Shown piece after piece: positions 2,739-34,361 of a DNA stretch of 34,361 nucleotides; the stretch's first letter is position 1; each line of letters opens with the position of its first letter. This stretch comes from an uncultured Actinomycetes bacterium (GTDB taxonomy: Bacteria; Actinomycetota; Acidimicrobiia; Acidimicrobiales; RAAP-2). The DNA is taken from the NCBI GenBank assembly GCA_903900235.1, contig CAIUMH010000084.1, positions 1 through 34,361 on the forward strand. The letters are read 5' to 3'. A model generated the notes under the pieces. It worked only from the letters and a program-made list of their open reading frames with translations, made no database searches and had not been told where the DNA came from. The translations under genes and the position numbers were made by a program.

Positions 2739-3482
2739 ATGACGCACCACCACTTCGATATTCAGCGCTTCGACGTCATCGACTCGACCAACACCTATCT
2801 GCTCGACCAAGCCCGGAGCGGGGCCCCGAGCCGGCTTGTGGCGGTGGCCGACCACCAGACGGCTGGCCGGGGTCGACTCGATCGTCGTTGGGAGTCACCG
2901 GCGGGAGCGGCCCTGCTGATGTCGGTGCTGCTGCGAGTACCTCTCGAGCCTGGTCAACTGCACCTCGCAACCGCCGCCGTAGCGCTCGCAGCAGTGGCCG
3001 CGGTCGACCAGTCCTGTGGACTCGCCCCAGATCTCAAGTGGCCCAATGACCTGGTGATCGAGGATGCCAAAGTTGCCGGGATCTTGGCCGAGATCGACCT
3101 CTCGGCGGCCGATGGGGTGCCTGCGATCGTCGTGGGGATTGGGATCAATCTCACCTGGCCGGGACCACCGGAAGTGGGCGGGACGTGCCTCCTCGATGCC
3201 ACCGGTGTCACCGTCGAACGTGACGTCCTCCTCGATCTCGTCCTGTCAGAGCTGGCCGGGCGGGTCGATCAACTTGGTGAGAGTGAAGGTCGAGCAGTGC
3301 TGATCTCCGAACTCTCTGAACGGCTGGTGACCATCGGGCGAAGGGTTCGGGTGATGATGGCTGATGGCGAGGTTGAGGGTCACGCAGTTGGCCTGAGCCC
3401 TGAGGGCCACCTGCTCGTTGACACCGAGAACGGGATTCTCGAGGTGGCTGCGGGCGATGTGATCCATCTGCGTCCGGCCTGA
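2739..3482 (+). CDS. birA: Biotin--[acetyl-CoA-carboxylase] ligase
   Basis: Activates biotin as biotinyl-AMP and attaches it to the carrier lysine of biotin-dependent carboxylases, most obviously the alpha subunit encoded divergently 93 bp away. The 247-aa form begins directly with the catalytic domain: DSTNTYLL, the adenylate loop GRGRLDRRW, KWPNDLVI and VGIGINL are all present, followed by the small C-terminal beta domain. There is no N-terminal helix-turn-helix, so this is the monofunctional class and not a biotin-operon repressor. An in-frame TTG at 2700 would add 13 residues. I prefer the ATG at 2739 because family homology begins there and a TAGGGT box lies 7 bases upstream. The stop codon lies inside the first unit of an 18-bp tandem repeat. 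Confidence 0.92.
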   Translation: MTHHHFDIQRFDVIDSTNTYLLDQARSGAPSRLVAVADHQTAGRGRLDRRWESPAGAALLMSVLLRVPLEPGQLHLATAAVALAAVAAVDQSCGLAPDLKWPNDLVIEDAKVAGILAEIDLSAADGVPAIVVGIGINLTWPGPPEVGGTCLLDATGVTVERDVLLDLVLSELAGRVDQLGESEGRAVLISELSERLVTIGRRVRVMMADGEVEGHAVGLSPEGHLLVDTENGILEVAAGDVIHLRPA

Positions 3483-3556
3483 CCTGACAGTCCGGCCTGA
3501 CCTGACTATCCGGCCTGCCCTGACTATCCGGCCTGCCCTGACTATCCGGCCTGACT
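3472..3556 (+). repeat. 18-bp tandem repeat, four full units plus a partial
   Basis: Four head-to-tail 18-bp units (3472-3489, 3490-3507, 3508-3525, 3526-3543) are followed by a partial unit (3544-3556). The commonest form is ATCCGGCCTGCCCTGACT. Units 3 and 4 are identical, and units 1 and 2 differ at few positions. The array starts in the last codons of birA, includes its stop, and runs into the -10 region of the rmlB-like gene. It is not a CRISPR array because there are no spacers. Function is unknown; it could have arisen by slippage or hold repeated protein sites. Confidence 0.9.
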
Positions 3557-29195: not shown

Positions 29196-29219
29196 GACGC
29201 TCCTCCAGGGCAGGGTGCG

Positions 29220-29246
29220 TTGGCAGTCGTCTCAGGTGACTGCCAA
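29220..29246 (+). promoter_or_regulatory. Inverted repeat upstream of fmdB
   Basis: TTGGCAGTC (29220-29228) and GACTGCCAA (29238-29246) are perfect 9-bp arms with a 9-base centre, 24 bp before fmdB and about 150 bp before pafBC. It is not followed by a U-tract on either strand, so a protein-binding operator is more likely than a terminator. Confidence 0.6.
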
Positions 29247-29395: not shown

Positions 29396-31336
29396 ATGGC
29401 AGCGACTGACAACACCATCGAGCGGCTCATGGATCTCACCGTGACCTTGCTCAACGCCTCACAAGGCCTCACCATGGCCCAGATCGTCAGCGAGCTGCCG
29501 AACTACCCGAACTCGTCGGAGACGGCGTCCCGGCAGCAGTTCGAGCGCGACAAGGTTCTCTTGCGCAAGCGAGGCGTCGAGGTCGAGGTCATCGAGACCG
29601 GAGCGGCCAATGACTATCGCTATCGAATCGACCCGGCCACGTACTATCTGCCCGATCTCAACCTTTCCTCGCAGGAGGTGGCGGCACTCGATCTGGCGCT
29701 GGCGGCAGTGGGGATCAACGGAGTGACCGAGGTCGACGGCCTCGCCAAGATCGGGCTGGGTAACGTCTCGTCAGCCTCGCCCATCGTGGACGTCGATATC
29801 TCCCCGTACAGCCCGGTGCTCTACCAAGCCATCTCGATGCAGGCCGAGGTCCGGTTTGACTATTCGGGGGTCAAGCGGCGGCTCAGTCCGGTCTCGTTGC
29901 GCTTCGCCCTTGGACACTGGTACCTCGAGGCCTATGACACGGCCGACAGCATCTCGAAGAACTTCCGTGTTGATCGGATCGAAACAGAGCCGAAGCTCGG
30001 GACGCGTGGCAGCGGCATCGTTCCTGATGGGGCGAGAGACAGCGGCCGGATCCTGAGCGTCCCGAGTGCGGTGGAGGTAGGCGAGGCCACCGAGATGCTG
30101 GTCCTTGAGGCCGACGCCCGGGCAACATGGCGCCTCGAGCGATCGCTCGGTGCCAACTTCGTGACGACTCGCAATGCTGATGGATCGAGCATCTTCACCA
30201 TTCCGATCCGCTCGTGGAAGCAGGCCCGCTCCTGGGTGATCGGCTTGCTTGACTCAGTGGTGGTGCAGTCACCGGAGGCGGCACGCTCTTCGATGGTGGC
30301 ATGGTTGACCTCGGTGGCTACGCAACCAGCCGCCGCCCCAGTTTCGATCAGCAATCCGGCGAACCTTGGGCCGGCGACCAGCCCGATCGACGCCGCTGGC
30401 ATCAGCATGACGCCGACGGAACGTCGACTCCAGCGCCTCTTCGCCATGCTCGAGTGGTTGGCGGAGATGGGGACAGTGGAGACCATCGAGGTCGCCAAGC
30501 GGTTCAACATGACGGTTGACGAGGTGGTTGCCGAGCTTGAGCTGGCGGCCTGCTGTGGTCGTCCTCCCTACTCACCGGGCGAGTTGATGGACATCATCGT
30601 GGACGCCGATACGGTCACCGCCCGCTTGCCAGACCTCGAGCGCGCCCGGCAGCTTTCAGCTTCGGACGCCATTGTGCTGGTGGCTGCCTCAAAGATGCTG
30701 CTCGAAGTGTCCGGGGGCGGTTCTGGCGGCCCGCTGGCCTCGGCGGTGGCGAAGCTTGAGGCGGCACTCGCTGCGGCGAAGTCAGTGGTGATCGAGATCC
30801 CGCATCCCGAGCACCTCGATGAGTTGGCCCGAGCGTGCAGTGAGGCGCGTGAGCTCGAGGTGGTGTACGTGGCTGACTCGACCGGCATCGAGTCGACGCG
30901 GGTGATTGATCCGATCAAGTGCGAGGTGCGAGAGGGTCAGTGGTACGTGTGGGCGTGGTGCTGCGAGCGCAGCGACTTCCGGATCTTTCACGCCGACCGC
31001 TTTCGGTCAGCGACTGACGTCGGTCCACGACGGGACGGCTTCGATGTATCGGATGCTGATGGCATCGACCTCATCAGCTCAGACGATGCGGAGACCGCAT
31101 TGGTGGTTCTCGGTCCTGATGCTCGTTGGGTCGCCGACTCAGTTCCGATCACTGGTCGACACGTCGAGGACGATGGTCGCATCGTGGTTTCACTGTCGGT
31201 ACTCAGCACGCTCTGGTTCGGGCGCCTGCTCCTCCAGGCTGGTCCCGATGCCACTGTGCTGAGTCCTGTTGACCTTGTGGACTGCGGGCGCGAAACCGCT
31301 CGGCGCGTCCTTCGGAGGTATGAGCCGACCGTGTGA
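29396..31336 (+). CDS. pafBC: Fused PafB-PafC WYL-domain transcription activator
   Basis: Actinobacterial PafB and PafC form the activator of the LexA-independent DNA-damage response; here both halves are one 646-aa chain. Half one: N-terminal winged HTH (about 1-80), WYL domain (about 147-195, HWYLEAY at 174-180) and a C-terminal extension. A Pro/Ala-rich linker follows (about 305-340). Half two: a second HTH-like region (340-410) and a second WYL domain (485-537, QWYVWAW at 515-521). Fused versions are known in some actinobacteria such as Arthrobacter, so this is a known architecture. The usual proteasome/pup neighbours are absent. The relaxase gene starts 17 bp downstream on the same strand. 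Confidence 0.9.
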   Translation: MAATDNTIERLMDLTVTLLNASQGLTMAQIVSELPNYPNSSETASRQQFERDKVLLRKRGVEVEVIETGAANDYRYRIDPATYYLPDLNLSSQEVAALDLALAAVGINGVTEVDGLAKIGLGNVSSASPIVDVDISPYSPVLYQAISMQAEVRFDYSGVKRRLSPVSLRFALGHWYLEAYDTADSISKNFRVDRIETEPKLGTRGSGIVPDGARDSGRILSVPSAVEVGEATEMLVLEADARATWRLERSLGANFVTTRNADGSSIFTIPIRSWKQARSWVIGLLDSVVVQSPEAARSSMVAWLTSVATQPAAAPVSISNPANLGPATSPIDAAGISMTPTERRLQRLFAMLEWLAEMGTVETIEVAKRFNMTVDEVVAELELAACCGRPPYSPGELMDIIVDADTVTARLPDLERARQLSASDAIVLVAASKMLLEVSGGGSGGPLASAVAKLEAALAAAKSVVIEIPHPEHLDELARACSEARELEVVYVADSTGIESTRVIDPIKCEVREGQWYVWAWCCERSDFRIFHADRFRSATDVGPRRDGFDVSDADGIDLISSDDAETALVVLGPDARWVADSVPITGRHVEDDGRIVVSLSVLSTLWFGRLLLQAGPDATVLSPVDLVDCGRETARRVLRRYEPTV

Positions 31337-31353
31337 GCCATGAGGCTCATGGC

Positions 31354-32523
31354 ATGCTCACGATCAATTCGCTGAGCGACAGCTCAGGGAGCTACCTGCT
31401 CAGCGATCCTGCTCGGGAGGTAGGGGACCTCTTCGGCGGACCGCAGCCCGGACGATGGGTTGGGAGATCGGCGCAGCATCACGGGCTCGTCGGGGACGTG
31501 GAGCCCAAGGCGCTCTCGCTTATCTTGTCCGGGCGGATCCCCGGCGGCACGCTCGAGCCAGGGGCTCACCAGCGTCGTAGCGCGTATGACCTGGTGTTTG
31601 CCGCACCGAAGCCCGTCAGTGTGCTCATGGCCTCCCCCAGCGAAGCTGTCGCTCGGCAGGTCGTTTTGGGTCATGAGGTGGCAGTCGAGGCCGCGATGGA
31701 CTACGTCGAAGACCGATCGGCCGGGATCCGGCGAGCGTCGGAGCGAGGGGAGCGGACCTGGCTGCACGTCAATGGTGTCGTCGCGGCGCGGTTCACCCAC
31801 GGGACAAGTCGCTCTGGTGACCCCCATCTCCACAGCCATGTTCTTCTCGCCAATCGCGCTCGAGGCGAGGACGGCCGCTTCGGTGCACTCGACGGCTTGG
31901 CGCTGCGTGCTCACGCCAGAGCGGCAGACGCCATCTATCTGAGTGCGCTGCGATCGGAGATGTCGAGACGGCTTGAGGTGGTGTTCCAGCGGGGGAGCGA
32001 TGGAGTGATCCGCATCATGGGGGTCAGCGATGCGGACTGCATCGCCTTCAGCGGTCGATCAGAGGAGGTTCGCAGGGGGGTGATTGGCCGGCCACTGAAG
32101 ACCAGTCGATCCCGAAGCGAGGCTCTCGGGATCTGGGAGGAACGGAAACGGAGGGCACCGTTGCTCGAGGATGCACCACGCTTCGATCGCTCGGCTCGTC
32201 ATGTCGATGAGCATCGGGCGGGAGCATTGCTCTACGGTCGCCCGCTCCTGGCCCGCCATGTCGTCGAATCGGTCGCCATGGCAGCGACCGCCGGCATCTC
32301 GGCTGAGGCGATTGCCACGGTGCTGGCGCAGTCGGGTTCAGCACTGGGCCGGGGGATCGCTGAGGTCGAGCTCTCATCGAACGTGGTTCCCACGTGGCGA
32401 GCACTCAAGGAACTCGGGCCGAGGCCCACCGATCGAACCCAATTAACGGAGTGGTTCGAGGAGGCAGGCCGCTATCGGGACCTCACGAGTCGATATCGGT
32501 CGCCTATCGCTCGAGGCCGTTGA
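31354..32523 (+). CDS. TrwC/MobF-type relaxase domain protein, no helicase
   Basis: Relaxases of this family nick one strand at an origin of transfer and stay attached through a tyrosine. The 389-aa form begins at the ATG at 31354 (MLTINSL), with GAGG 8 bases upstream; the in-frame ATG at 31333 adds 7 residues. The metal site H158-L-H160-S-H162 lies in FTHGTSRSGDPHLHSHVLLAN, and YDLVFAAPKPVSVL (78-91) is the other family block. Only one tyrosine (Y14) is near the N-terminus, where TrwC has a cluster, so it is the candidate nucleophile. MobF relaxases usually continue into a helicase of several hundred residues; none is present. It is close behind pafBC and overlaps convergent coupling-protein DNA by 20 bp. 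Confidence 0.85.
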   Translation: MLTINSLSDSSGSYLLSDPAREVGDLFGGPQPGRWVGRSAQHHGLVGDVEPKALSLILSGRIPGGTLEPGAHQRRSAYDLVFAAPKPVSVLMASPSEAVARQVVLGHEVAVEAAMDYVEDRSAGIRRASERGERTWLHVNGVVAARFTHGTSRSGDPHLHSHVLLANRARGEDGRFGALDGLALRAHARAADAIYLSALRSEMSRRLEVVFQRGSDGVIRIMGVSDADCIAFSGRSEEVRRGVIGRPLKTSRSRSEALGIWEERKRRAPLLEDAPRFDRSARHVDEHRAGALLYGRPLLARHVVESVAMAATAGISAEAIATVLAQSGSALGRGIAEVELSSNVVPTWRALKELGPRPTDRTQLTEWFEEAGRYRDLTSRYRSPIARGR

Positions 32524-33856
32524 GTCCTCGAGGAGGAAGCCTTCTGGTCCTCGAGGCCCAAGGTTCGTCTCGGTGGGCGACCGTCAGTGGAATCCATCCG
32601 ACGCTGTTGGTGGCGTCGAGAAGCAGACCGTGATCAGGTCGTCCCCGAGCTACGGCATCGATTGGCAGGACTGGCTCGTCGGTAGTGCTCCAGGTCTCGG
32701 TGAGGGTCGTACCGCCTCGCCGGCCCCGGGCAGTAGATCTCGATGATCGAGCGACGCGTGACTGACCAGCGAGGTCGTGAAAGGCGCGCAGGGTCGTGCG
32801 ATCGGCGACGCCGCCTAGGAGCAGAGTGGTGGAGAACAATGAGAGGAACCCATCGGCCTCAGGTCCCCATCGGACTCGGGCCTGTGAGAGGTCCTGGAGG
32901 CATCCGATGGTGAGGAGACCCTGGCCGCCTCCCTCGCTGACGATCTGTGCCAGATCAGGCAGAGGGGCGATATTGGCGAGTTCATCGAGCGCGAGGAGGA
33001 CCGGCCGATCGAGATCGGCGCGTCGGTAGGCGGCGGTGCGAACTTCAGAGAGGAGGCCGACGACGAGTGGGGCAGCGAGTTCTTGGCTTCGACCCGAGGC
33101 ACAGATGTACAGCGTGTGCTGGCCGTCGACGAAGGCCGCGGCATCGAGCCCGTCTCGCTCGGTGGTGGCCAAGGCACCGAGGGATCTGTAGGCCCCGAGG
33201 ACCCCTGACGTGGAGGACCAGATTGCCGACTGCTCCCGGCTGTCGGTAGCGAGAATCCCGGTGAGGAGCGCAGTCGCAGGGTGCTCGGTTCCGATGTGAT
33301 CTTCGAGGATCTCCAAGGCTTCGTTGCCGCTATGGCGGTCCACCCACCTGAGCACTGACGAGAGTGAGAGGTCGCCGCTCCTTCCGGCGTACAGCAGGGT
33401 CGAGAGCAGCGCAGCGCTGCGTTCGGTCCAGTGGTCGACCACAGGGCCAGCACCACCGGCTCTCCGTCGAGATGACGCCACCATCGCCGTGGCGATATCG
33501 ATGGCACCATCCCATGTCGCAGCAGCACCGAGCGGGGACCAGCCGATCGACATCACCCCCTGCGGCGGGGTTGAGTCCCCGAGGGGGTCGAAGAGCAACG
33601 TATGACCGTGTTCGCCGCGTGCTGCCGCGGTGGCCGTAATGACATCTTGCTTCGTCGAGGTCAACACCACGGCACCCGGTGCGCTGAGCACGTTGGGGAT
33701 GATCACGCTGCTGGTCTTCCCCGATCGGGTGGGTCCTAGGACGAGTGTGCTGCGTTGATTCCCCGACCAGATCCAGCCCTCGGCGTCGCGCCCGAGCAGT
33801 ATTCCTGCATGATCGTGTCGAGCTCGGTCGTCGGTGGTGGTCGACGTCTTCATCAC
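32504..33856 (-). CDS. VirD4/TraG-type coupling ATPase, soluble form
   Basis: Coupling proteins carry relaxase-DNA complexes to a type IV secretion channel. The 450-aa protein has Walker A GPTRSGKTS (41-49), a STKQD block near 67, and Walker B PVLLALDELANIAPLP with D291/E292. It lacks the N-terminal membrane helices of VirD4, so it is either a soluble form or relies on a partner for membrane attachment. Start is GTG at 33856 or the ATG immediately after. It faces the relaxase gene tail-to-tail with a 20-bp overlap. No other secretion genes are visible, so the partner channel is unknown. Confidence 0.85.
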   Translation of the reverse strand: MMKTSTTTDDRARHDHAGILLGRDAEGWIWSGNQRSTLVLGPTRSGKTSSVIIPNVLSAPGAVVLTSTKQDVITATAAARGEHGHTLLFDPLGDSTPPQGVMSIGWSPLGAAATWDGAIDIATAMVASSRRRAGGAGPVVDHWTERSAALLSTLLYAGRSGDLSLSSVLRWVDRHSGNEALEILEDHIGTEHPATALLTGILATDSREQSAIWSSTSGVLGAYRSLGALATTERDGLDAAAFVDGQHTLYICASGRSQELAAPLVVGLLSEVRTAAYRRADLDRPVLLALDELANIAPLPDLAQIVSEGGGQGLLTIGCLQDLSQARVRWGPEADGFLSLFSTTLLLGGVADRTTLRAFHDLAGQSRVARSSRSTARGRRGGTTLTETWSTTDEPVLPIDAVARGRPDHGLLLDATNSVGWIPLTVAHRDEPWASRTRRLPPRGLNGLER

Positions 33857-34212
33857 TAGTCCAACGGTCGCAACGCCGAGATGCTTGACCCGGCATCGGG
33901 GATGAAGTCAACTATGGACAGTCAACAGCATGAGGTGATGTCGATGAGTGGTGTGAGTGCTGCGTTCAGCGGGAAGTCGGACGGTCGGATCAACGCCGTC
34001 GCTGACCGTGTCGCAGTACGGCGCATCAGCACCGGAGCATCCTGCTTGAGGCTGTGTGCCACCTTGACATCGATCGACAGCCGAGAGGCTGACGGTCGCG
34101 GCGGGTGGGTTCACTCAACTACCTCCGTTGCACGTCGAAGCAGCCGGTTTGTCCGGACTCTGCATCGGTCAGTGACGGCTGCGTAGCAACGGAAACCCAA
34201 GGAGGTACTCCC
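33857..34212. other. 356-bp gene-poor gap with a short direct repeat
   Basis: Open frames on both strands here (plus 33881-34186; minus 33908-34114) have no recognisable domain or convincing start, and I do not call them genes. AGTCAAC occurs twice, at 33906-33912 and 33920-33926, 14 bases apart; read on the other strand each gives TTGACT, like a -35 facing the coupling-protein gene. A 5-bp hairpin CAGCC/GGCTG lies near 34078-34091. A TTGACA is at 34064-34069 with no matching -10. The gap ends with the AAGGAGGT of the next gene. Confidence 0.6.
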
Positions 34213-34361
34213 GTGGCAACTGCCGCAAAGAAGAAGGCTCCGGCCAAGAAGGCTCCGGCCAAGAAGGTCGCCGCCAAGAAGGCTCCAGCCAAGAAGGCTC
34301 CAGCCAAGAAGGCTCCAGCCAAGAAGGCTCCAGCCAAGAAGGCTCCAGCCAAGAAGGCTCC
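34213..34361 (+). CDS. Lys/Ala/Pro-repeat protein, 5' end only
   Basis: A GTG preceded by AAGGAGGT at good spacing opens a frame reading [18 protein letters not shown] and continuing in five-residue KKAPA repeats to the window edge (about 49 residues seen). The strongly basic repeat suggests nucleic-acid binding. Candidates are a histone H1-like nucleoid protein, or a protein with a basic N-terminal tail ahead of a folded domain, such as a DksA/TraR zinc-finger or HU-like protein. The folded part lies outside, so I cannot choose. Confidence 0.75.
34231..34361 (+). repeat. 15-bp coding tandem repeat
   Basis: Eight full units and a partial of AAGAAGGCTCCAGCC or close variants run from 34231 to the edge. 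The first two units use CCG where the later ones use CCA. The third reads GTC GCC GCC after AAGAAG. Units 4 to 8 are identical, pointing to recent expansion by slippage. Confidence 0.92.

Follow-up and report, generated by a model that had tools for sequence, protein, structure and literature searches.

The locus described here raises the question of whether a bacterial chromosome can own a conjugation machine, since bacterial conjugation is commonly viewed as the business of mobile elements. It lies on contig C84 (CAIUMH010000084.1) of an uncultured Acidimicrobiales actinobacterium; the whole contig, 34,361 bp, is the window analysed here, and the genome to which it belongs (G000) comprises 2.4 Mb in 157 contigs. 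At this locus the gene for the DNA damage regulator PafBC is followed by a relaxase gene, which runs tail-to-tail into the gene for a coupling ATPase. With rather better than even confidence, we read PafBC, the relaxase and the soluble ATPase as a module that belongs to the core genome, is inherited vertically and forms part of a domesticated conjugation-type system for DNA transfer. Nearly all of the genomes compared are metagenome-assembled genomes.

The pafBC gene (29396..31336, + strand) encodes a fused form of PafBC, the WYL-domain transcription activator of the DNA damage response that senses single-stranded DNA (ssDNA). Pfam matched HTH_PafC together with two WYL and two WCX stretches, giving two helix-turn-helix (HTH)-WYL-WCX halves, and phmmer aligned the protein with PafBC of A. 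aurescens (6sj9) and M. smegmatis (7p5x). Activation of PafBC by ssDNA has been shown in mycobacteria, and R211 and R214 of M. smegmatis PafB were reported to be essential for ssDNA binding (PMC11804915). In the PafB half of the window protein the WYL tyrosine and the ssDNA-binding FR-x-x-R arginines are kept, and two flanking arginines are replaced relative to the solved PafBC proteins. The domain order is therefore like that of mycobacterial PafBC and the ssDNA-binding residues of the PafB WYL domain are mostly kept; unlike the mycobacterial gene (PMC6789036, PMC11804915), the window pafBC is linked to a relaxase, lies outside the proteasome operon and was found without the mycobacterial promoter motif RecA-NDp. 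It is the single pafBC match in G000. At the same locus, pafB and pafC are split in some genera (L196, L194, L190, L171 and others) and fused in others.

The relaxase gene (31354..32523, + strand) begins with an ATG 17 bp past the pafBC stop and encodes a helicase-free MobF/TrwC-family protein of 389 aa. A GTG seven codons upstream, which overlaps the pafBC stop by 4 bp, could provide an alternative 5' extension (31333..31353, + strand), but the family consensus favours 31354. The only domain detected was TrwC/MobF (Pfam TrwC, 1e-48, 166.8 bits against a cut-off of 25; NCBIfam MobF, 168.7 bits against a cut-off of 100). Tyr14, the candidate nucleophile, and His149, His160 and His162 (389-aa numbering) were invariant in alignments of 27 and 31 homologues, and the AlphaFold2 (AF2) model, with a mean predicted local distance difference test (pLDDT) score of 89, has the TrwC fold (Foldseek E 4e-17). 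The protein shares this fold, the tyrosine with three histidines and a fully alignable N-terminal domain with the MobF relaxases TrwC of R388 and TraI of F, pKM101 and pCU1. It differs from them in lacking the helicase and C-terminal domains, in its short family-specific C-terminal part, in being chromosomal and in having no known origin of transfer (oriT). Pfam did not match a C-terminal helicase, and the assignment to MobF covers the relaxase domain alone. Among the pafBC-linked relaxases, an AAA_30 helicase is retained in L197 and L208, a weak remnant is present in L169 and most have none; from this spread the helicase appears to have been lost, seemingly stepwise.

The convergent gene (32504..33856, - strand) overlaps the relaxase tail by 20 bp and encodes a 450-aa VirD4/TrwB-type coupling protein, or type IV coupling protein (T4CP), without transmembrane (TM) segments. 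ATPases of this type are called T4CP-A below. It matched T4SS-DNA_transf and TraG-D_C in Pfam, and its Walker A (GP-x-RSGKT) and Walker B (LxLDE) motifs were invariant across 29 sequences. The AF2 model (pLDDT 88) showed a TrwB/Cag-beta fold in Foldseek, which returned TrwB and Cag-beta where a phmmer search of PDB with the single sequence returned no match. The protein accordingly has the Walker motor and TrwB/TraG fold of its family but not the N-terminal transmembrane anchor: no membrane-spanning hydrophobic segment was found in it, and its homologues are likewise without the anchor. These results bear out the gene-by-gene description in an earlier note on this DNA, which had recognised a fused PafBC, a helicase-free relaxase starting 17 bp behind it and, tail-to-tail with the relaxase, a VirD4-like ATPase that has no membrane helices. 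The nearest plasmid relatives of the soluble T4CP, at ~40% identity, are on NZ_CP023148.1 (L269) and NZ_CP046576.1 (L270), Mycobacterium/Rhodococcus plasmids of 14-20 kb whose annotation holds no MobF relaxase gene.

To whom such genes belong was addressed by comparing 37 genomes of the host family. In 35 of the 37, pafBC immediately precedes the relaxase, and no genome was contrary, the other two being uninformative (the contig of G016 ends at the site; G036 is incomplete and both genes are missing). The convergent T4CP was present in at least 33 of the 37, so that the pafBC-relaxase-ATPase order proposed for checking by the earlier note is indeed conserved. The flanking genes are ordinary chromosomal ones: one flank carries either TldD/TldE, FmdB and Dxs or type IV pilus genes, and the other carries a gene for HU or a lysine-rich histone-like protein together with CofC, GpsA and a GH38 glycosidase. 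No integrase-like gene or tRNA was seen at the module or in the window, as the earlier note had found for integrases. Distances between genomes tracked those of host GpsA (relaxase, r 0.82; T4CP, r 0.86), compared with 0.79 for GpsA and GH38. Relative to the nearest relative, the ratio of nonsynonymous to synonymous substitution rates (dN/dS) was 0.16 for PafBC, 0.22 for the relaxase and 0.14 for the T4CP, rough values because synonymous sites are near saturation. In a second, independent and named sample of 80 relaxase loci, the pafBC-relaxase order recurred in most Acidimicrobiales entries. Type IV pilus genes (PilB, PilC) lie upstream of pafBC-relaxase-T4CP in many genera of the family (L097, L098, L099, L101, L106, L122); in the window's own genus they are not adjacent to the module.

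Because the order is family-wide, the flanks are ordinary, integrase and tRNA are absent and the distances track host genes, the module is a core-genome, vertically inherited one and not a mobile insertion. Its genes are not decaying, since the active-site and Walker residues are invariant and dN/dS is ~0.2. The features expected of a mobilisable element, namely integration/excision or replication genes, boundaries and a sporadic distribution, were not found. A decaying relic of a mobilisable plasmid or integrative and mobilisable element (IME) inserted behind pafBC, which the earlier note had entertained, might be suggested by the plasmid relatives of the T4CP, by the truncation of the relaxase compared with plasmid MobF proteins and by a relaxase match with internal stops in G112. 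Family-wide order, invariant active sites, low dN/dS (0.14-0.22), host-tracking distances and the lack of any visible element boundary have already largely refuted this idea, which we consider very improbable. Even harder to credit is a live integrative and conjugative element (ICE) or IME maintained by repeated transfer. Relaxase, T4CP and type IV secretion system (T4SS) genes are hallmarks of such elements, and a few relatives do carry element-like clusters with a full-length relaxase and T4SS genes of the family described below (G010:C164, G028:C49, G057:C188); but the module has the same chromosomal neighbours across the family, no integrase or tRNA is at the site, the distance pattern is vertical and G000 has a single relaxase.

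The position of pafBC itself points to a rearrangement in the host. Many relatives that do not belong to the module-carrying clade have pafBC behind pafA in an ARC-Dop-Pup-PrcB-PrcA-PafA-PafBC-...-TatA-TatC-HelY operon, and some others have it elsewhere. In G000 the proteasome operon (ARC, Dop, Pup, PrcB, PrcA, PafA, TatA, TatC, HelY) is on contig C67 (L261:6002-16331) with pafBC alone missing, and G002 and G003 likewise have an intact proteasome operon minus pafBC. pafBC has thus moved away from its usual position after pafA. Loss of the proteasome as an accompaniment of the move was considered and rejected, the operon being intact. A simple mobile insertion, which the earlier note would have accepted had close relatives carried pafBC without these genes and had element boundaries been visible, does not fit either: such relatives exist, but their pafBC is mostly in the proteasome operon and neither integrase nor boundary is present at the module.

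Genes for a secretion channel were found elsewhere in G000 through a search for a second coupling protein. On contig C69 (L127:8762-14803, - strand), beside phoR/phoP, lies a minimal T4SS locus of VirB2-like, SCO6881, SCO6880, VirB4 and VirD4 genes, all on one strand. Its small two-helix protein is a DUF6112 protein, with weak TrbC/VirB2-pilin similarity in relatives; the SCO6881-family protein is VirB6-like and is accompanied by an SCO6880-family protein and a VirB4-type ATPase. The VirD4 of this locus has a membrane segment, unlike the window T4CP, and an N-terminal TM is present in most copies of this second VirD4. The T4SS locus also belongs to the core genome, because it is conserved beside phoR/phoP in one genome of the family after another. 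The earlier statement that mating-pair genes are missing is therefore true of the window and not of the genome as a whole.

The two loci also occur together. An order-level survey of 148 genomes, evenly sampled across the order, found T4CP-A (matches of about 190 bits or more) in 51 genomes, VirB4 in 64 and both in 49; VirB4 was present in 49 of the 51 T4CP-A genomes compared with 15 of the 97 without it (Fisher p 3e-23, uncorrected for phylogeny). At least 25 genomes from 13 families, all of them T4CP-A carriers, have a relaxase on the same strand within 2 kb downstream of pafBC, with gaps of mostly 20-210 bp. Of the 97 genomes lacking T4CP-A, 33 carry a MobF relaxase of some kind, but no pafBC-linked one is among the matches listed. 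The pafBC-relaxase pair is the most tightly kept, because the ATPase lies elsewhere in about half of these T4CP-A carriers. In L188, L201 and L266, a relaxase of the window family stands directly beside the same T4SS genes. The simplest history is that a conjugative element was captured and that its relaxase and soluble ATPase ended up beside pafBC.

Taken together, these observations suggest how a domesticated transfer system could work. Damaged or stalled DNA would expose ssDNA, which would activate PafBC through its WYL domains. Transcription of pafBC would yield the relaxase too, the genes being 17 bp apart on the same strand, so that damage sensing and nicking capacity would be made together. 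The relaxase would nick chromosomal DNA and remain on the 5' end, and the soluble T4CP would bring the ssDNA-relaxase complex to the minimal T4SS of the phoR locus. The T4SS would then export the ssDNA, most simply to a neighbouring cell as a repair template. Support for these steps declines in order, from nicking by the relaxase and pumping of ssDNA by the T4CP (protein families, active sites), through the T4SS partnership (co-occurrence, linked relatives) and co-transcription with pafBC (17 bp, same strand), to induction by PafBC after damage and, last, the use of chromosomal DNA in repair. Extended to the order, this would describe a clade with core-genome, damage-induced conjugation, in which PafBC drives a relaxase-T4CP-T4SS machine that sends chromosomal ssDNA to neighbours, an equivalent of the archaeal Ced system with a dedicated relaxase; we put this full version forward only tentatively, as possible but short of an even chance.

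The same machine might instead release DNA into the medium, as in the gonococcal genetic island, for type IV pilus uptake or biofilm and not for cell-to-cell transfer. The PilB and PilC genes directly upstream of pafBC in many genera speak for such a role, with which a soluble T4CP, a relaxase and a minimal T4SS are compatible. Against it, the pilus genes are not beside the module in the window's own genus, and nothing separates release from contact-dependent transfer. We regard release as a rather unlikely variant.

Several observations weigh against a domesticated transfer system. The co-occurrence of T4CP-A and VirB4, uncorrected for phylogeny, could go back to a single gain or a few. About half of the T4CP-A genomes in the order-level survey have the T4CP or pafBC somewhere other than beside the relaxase. 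The T4SS and the module occupy separate loci, and G002, a near relative that is about 91% complete in 4 contigs, has the module and no VirB4 match. A search around the module revealed no conserved element resembling an oriT, nor did the regions upstream of pafBC and of the T4CP share a conserved inverted repeat, in agreement with the absence of a clear oriT in the earlier note; an oriT of unfamiliar sequence may nevertheless be present. Finally, RecA-NDp, the mycobacterial PafBC promoter, had 0 occurrences in G000, although only the mycobacterial consensus was tested and the motif of this lineage may differ. Across 61 genomes RecA-NDp showed no excess over a reversed-pattern control, and the regions upstream of the module were no different from control upstream regions. 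Because RecA-NDp was not enriched, we infer PafBC control of the module and claim nothing stronger. The earlier note had offered a relic, a minimal mobilisation module and a chromosomal DNA-processing system under damage control; the data disfavour the relic and fit the last of these best, with a transfer machine added and damage control as a putative feature.

The main rival draws on some of these points. It gives the relaxase and the soluble ATPase an intracellular part in replication or repair, by nicking and re-joining, ssDNA handling or translocase activity, with PafBC as co-regulator and no transfer. A T4CP-A without a membrane anchor, a relaxase that has lost its helicase, direct linkage to a damage regulator, the separate T4SS locus and the module of G002 without a VirB4 match would all suit such a role. 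However, known relaxases and T4CPs serve DNA transfer, VirB4 accompanies T4CP-A in 49 of 51 genomes, and window-family relaxases stand beside the same T4SS genes in the three loci named above. We judge an intracellular role unlikely, if still a serious contender, and continue to favour domesticated transfer.

Domesticated conjugation machinery is a known kind of system. What is new here is a conserved, host-owned relaxase-T4CP pair at a damage sensor together with a core T4SS, while transfer itself we infer. In the gonococcal genetic island, a chromosomal relaxase, coupling protein and T4SS are thought to export ssDNA, in a mobile island with a large mating-pair formation (MPF) apparatus. The window system shares the chromosomal relaxase, coupling protein and T4SS; it differs in belonging to the core genome, in being minimal, in adjoining a damage regulator and in having another relaxase. 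By analogy, the nearest precedent is archaeal Ced, in which chromosomal VirB2-, VirB4- and VirB6-like genes move cellular DNA after damage, importing DNA with no recognisable relaxase (PMC9905601). Like Ced/Ted of Sulfolobales and Thermoproteales (PMC9905601), G000 has chromosomal, core-genome VirB2-, VirB4- and VirB6-like genes of conjugation type and, as predicted here, a tie to the damage response. Unlike Ced, the system is bacterial and possesses PafBC and two ATPases of VirD4 type alongside an intact relaxase of the MobF family. The core T4SS of Patescibacteria is also monoderm-type conjugation machinery co-opted in host chromosomes, mostly without a relaxase (PMC12102498), whereas the window-type relaxase is conserved and pafBC-linked. 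None of the papers in the collection searched names PafBC together with a relaxase.

A relaxase, a coupling ATPase and a T4SS that are inherited vertically, retain intact active sites in at least 13 families and are tied to a damage sensor would be a host-owned chromosomal DNA mover. The link is specific, in that ssDNA, the activator of PafBC, is the molecule that the machine would handle. In these uncultured actinobacteria, a large group found in soil and freshwater, a tamed conjugation machine may serve the DNA damage response; if so, it would be a bacterial counterpart of the archaeal DNA-exchange systems and could help to explain gene flow in abundant uncultured actinobacteria.

Other features of the window lie outside the module proper. 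A perfect 9-bp inverted repeat, TTGGCAGTC-N9-GACTGCCAA (29219-29245), between fmdB and pafBC was rejected as an oriT, because comparable repeats turn up at other loci by chance and because it was not found in the nearest relative. At the right boundary, the divergent intergenic region (33857..34212) separates the T4CP gene from a gene for a lysine-rich AKKAPAKK repeat protein (34213-34361), which is cut off by the end of the contig. Other genera have an HU domain fused to such a lysine-rich tail at this position, so that the HU domain has apparently been lost in the window's genus. The AKKAPAKK repeats probably explain the frequent contig breaks there. A conserved nine-base promoter-like motif, ATGCTTGAC (33881-33889, + strand), occurs 22 times in loci totalling 1.37 Mb, with 20 of these occurrences shortly upstream of the T4CP, and stands 66 nt ahead of the gene for HU with a lysine tail in G024, G025 and G034; it is probably the -35 promoter element of the divergent HU/lysine-rich gene. 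A 75-nt hairpin (34052-34126, + strand) in the leader of the lysine-rich gene shows compensatory changes in 6 of 18 pairs across 8 genomes from two genera; it had no Rfam match, and its covariance model matched only its 8 source genomes. An oriT is the less likely interpretation of this hairpin, given the promoter-like element nearby, and it is more likely a leader of the lysine-rich gene, a riboregulator being another option. At the other end of the window, an 18-bp tandem repeat of 4.6 copies (3473-3555) is intergenic.

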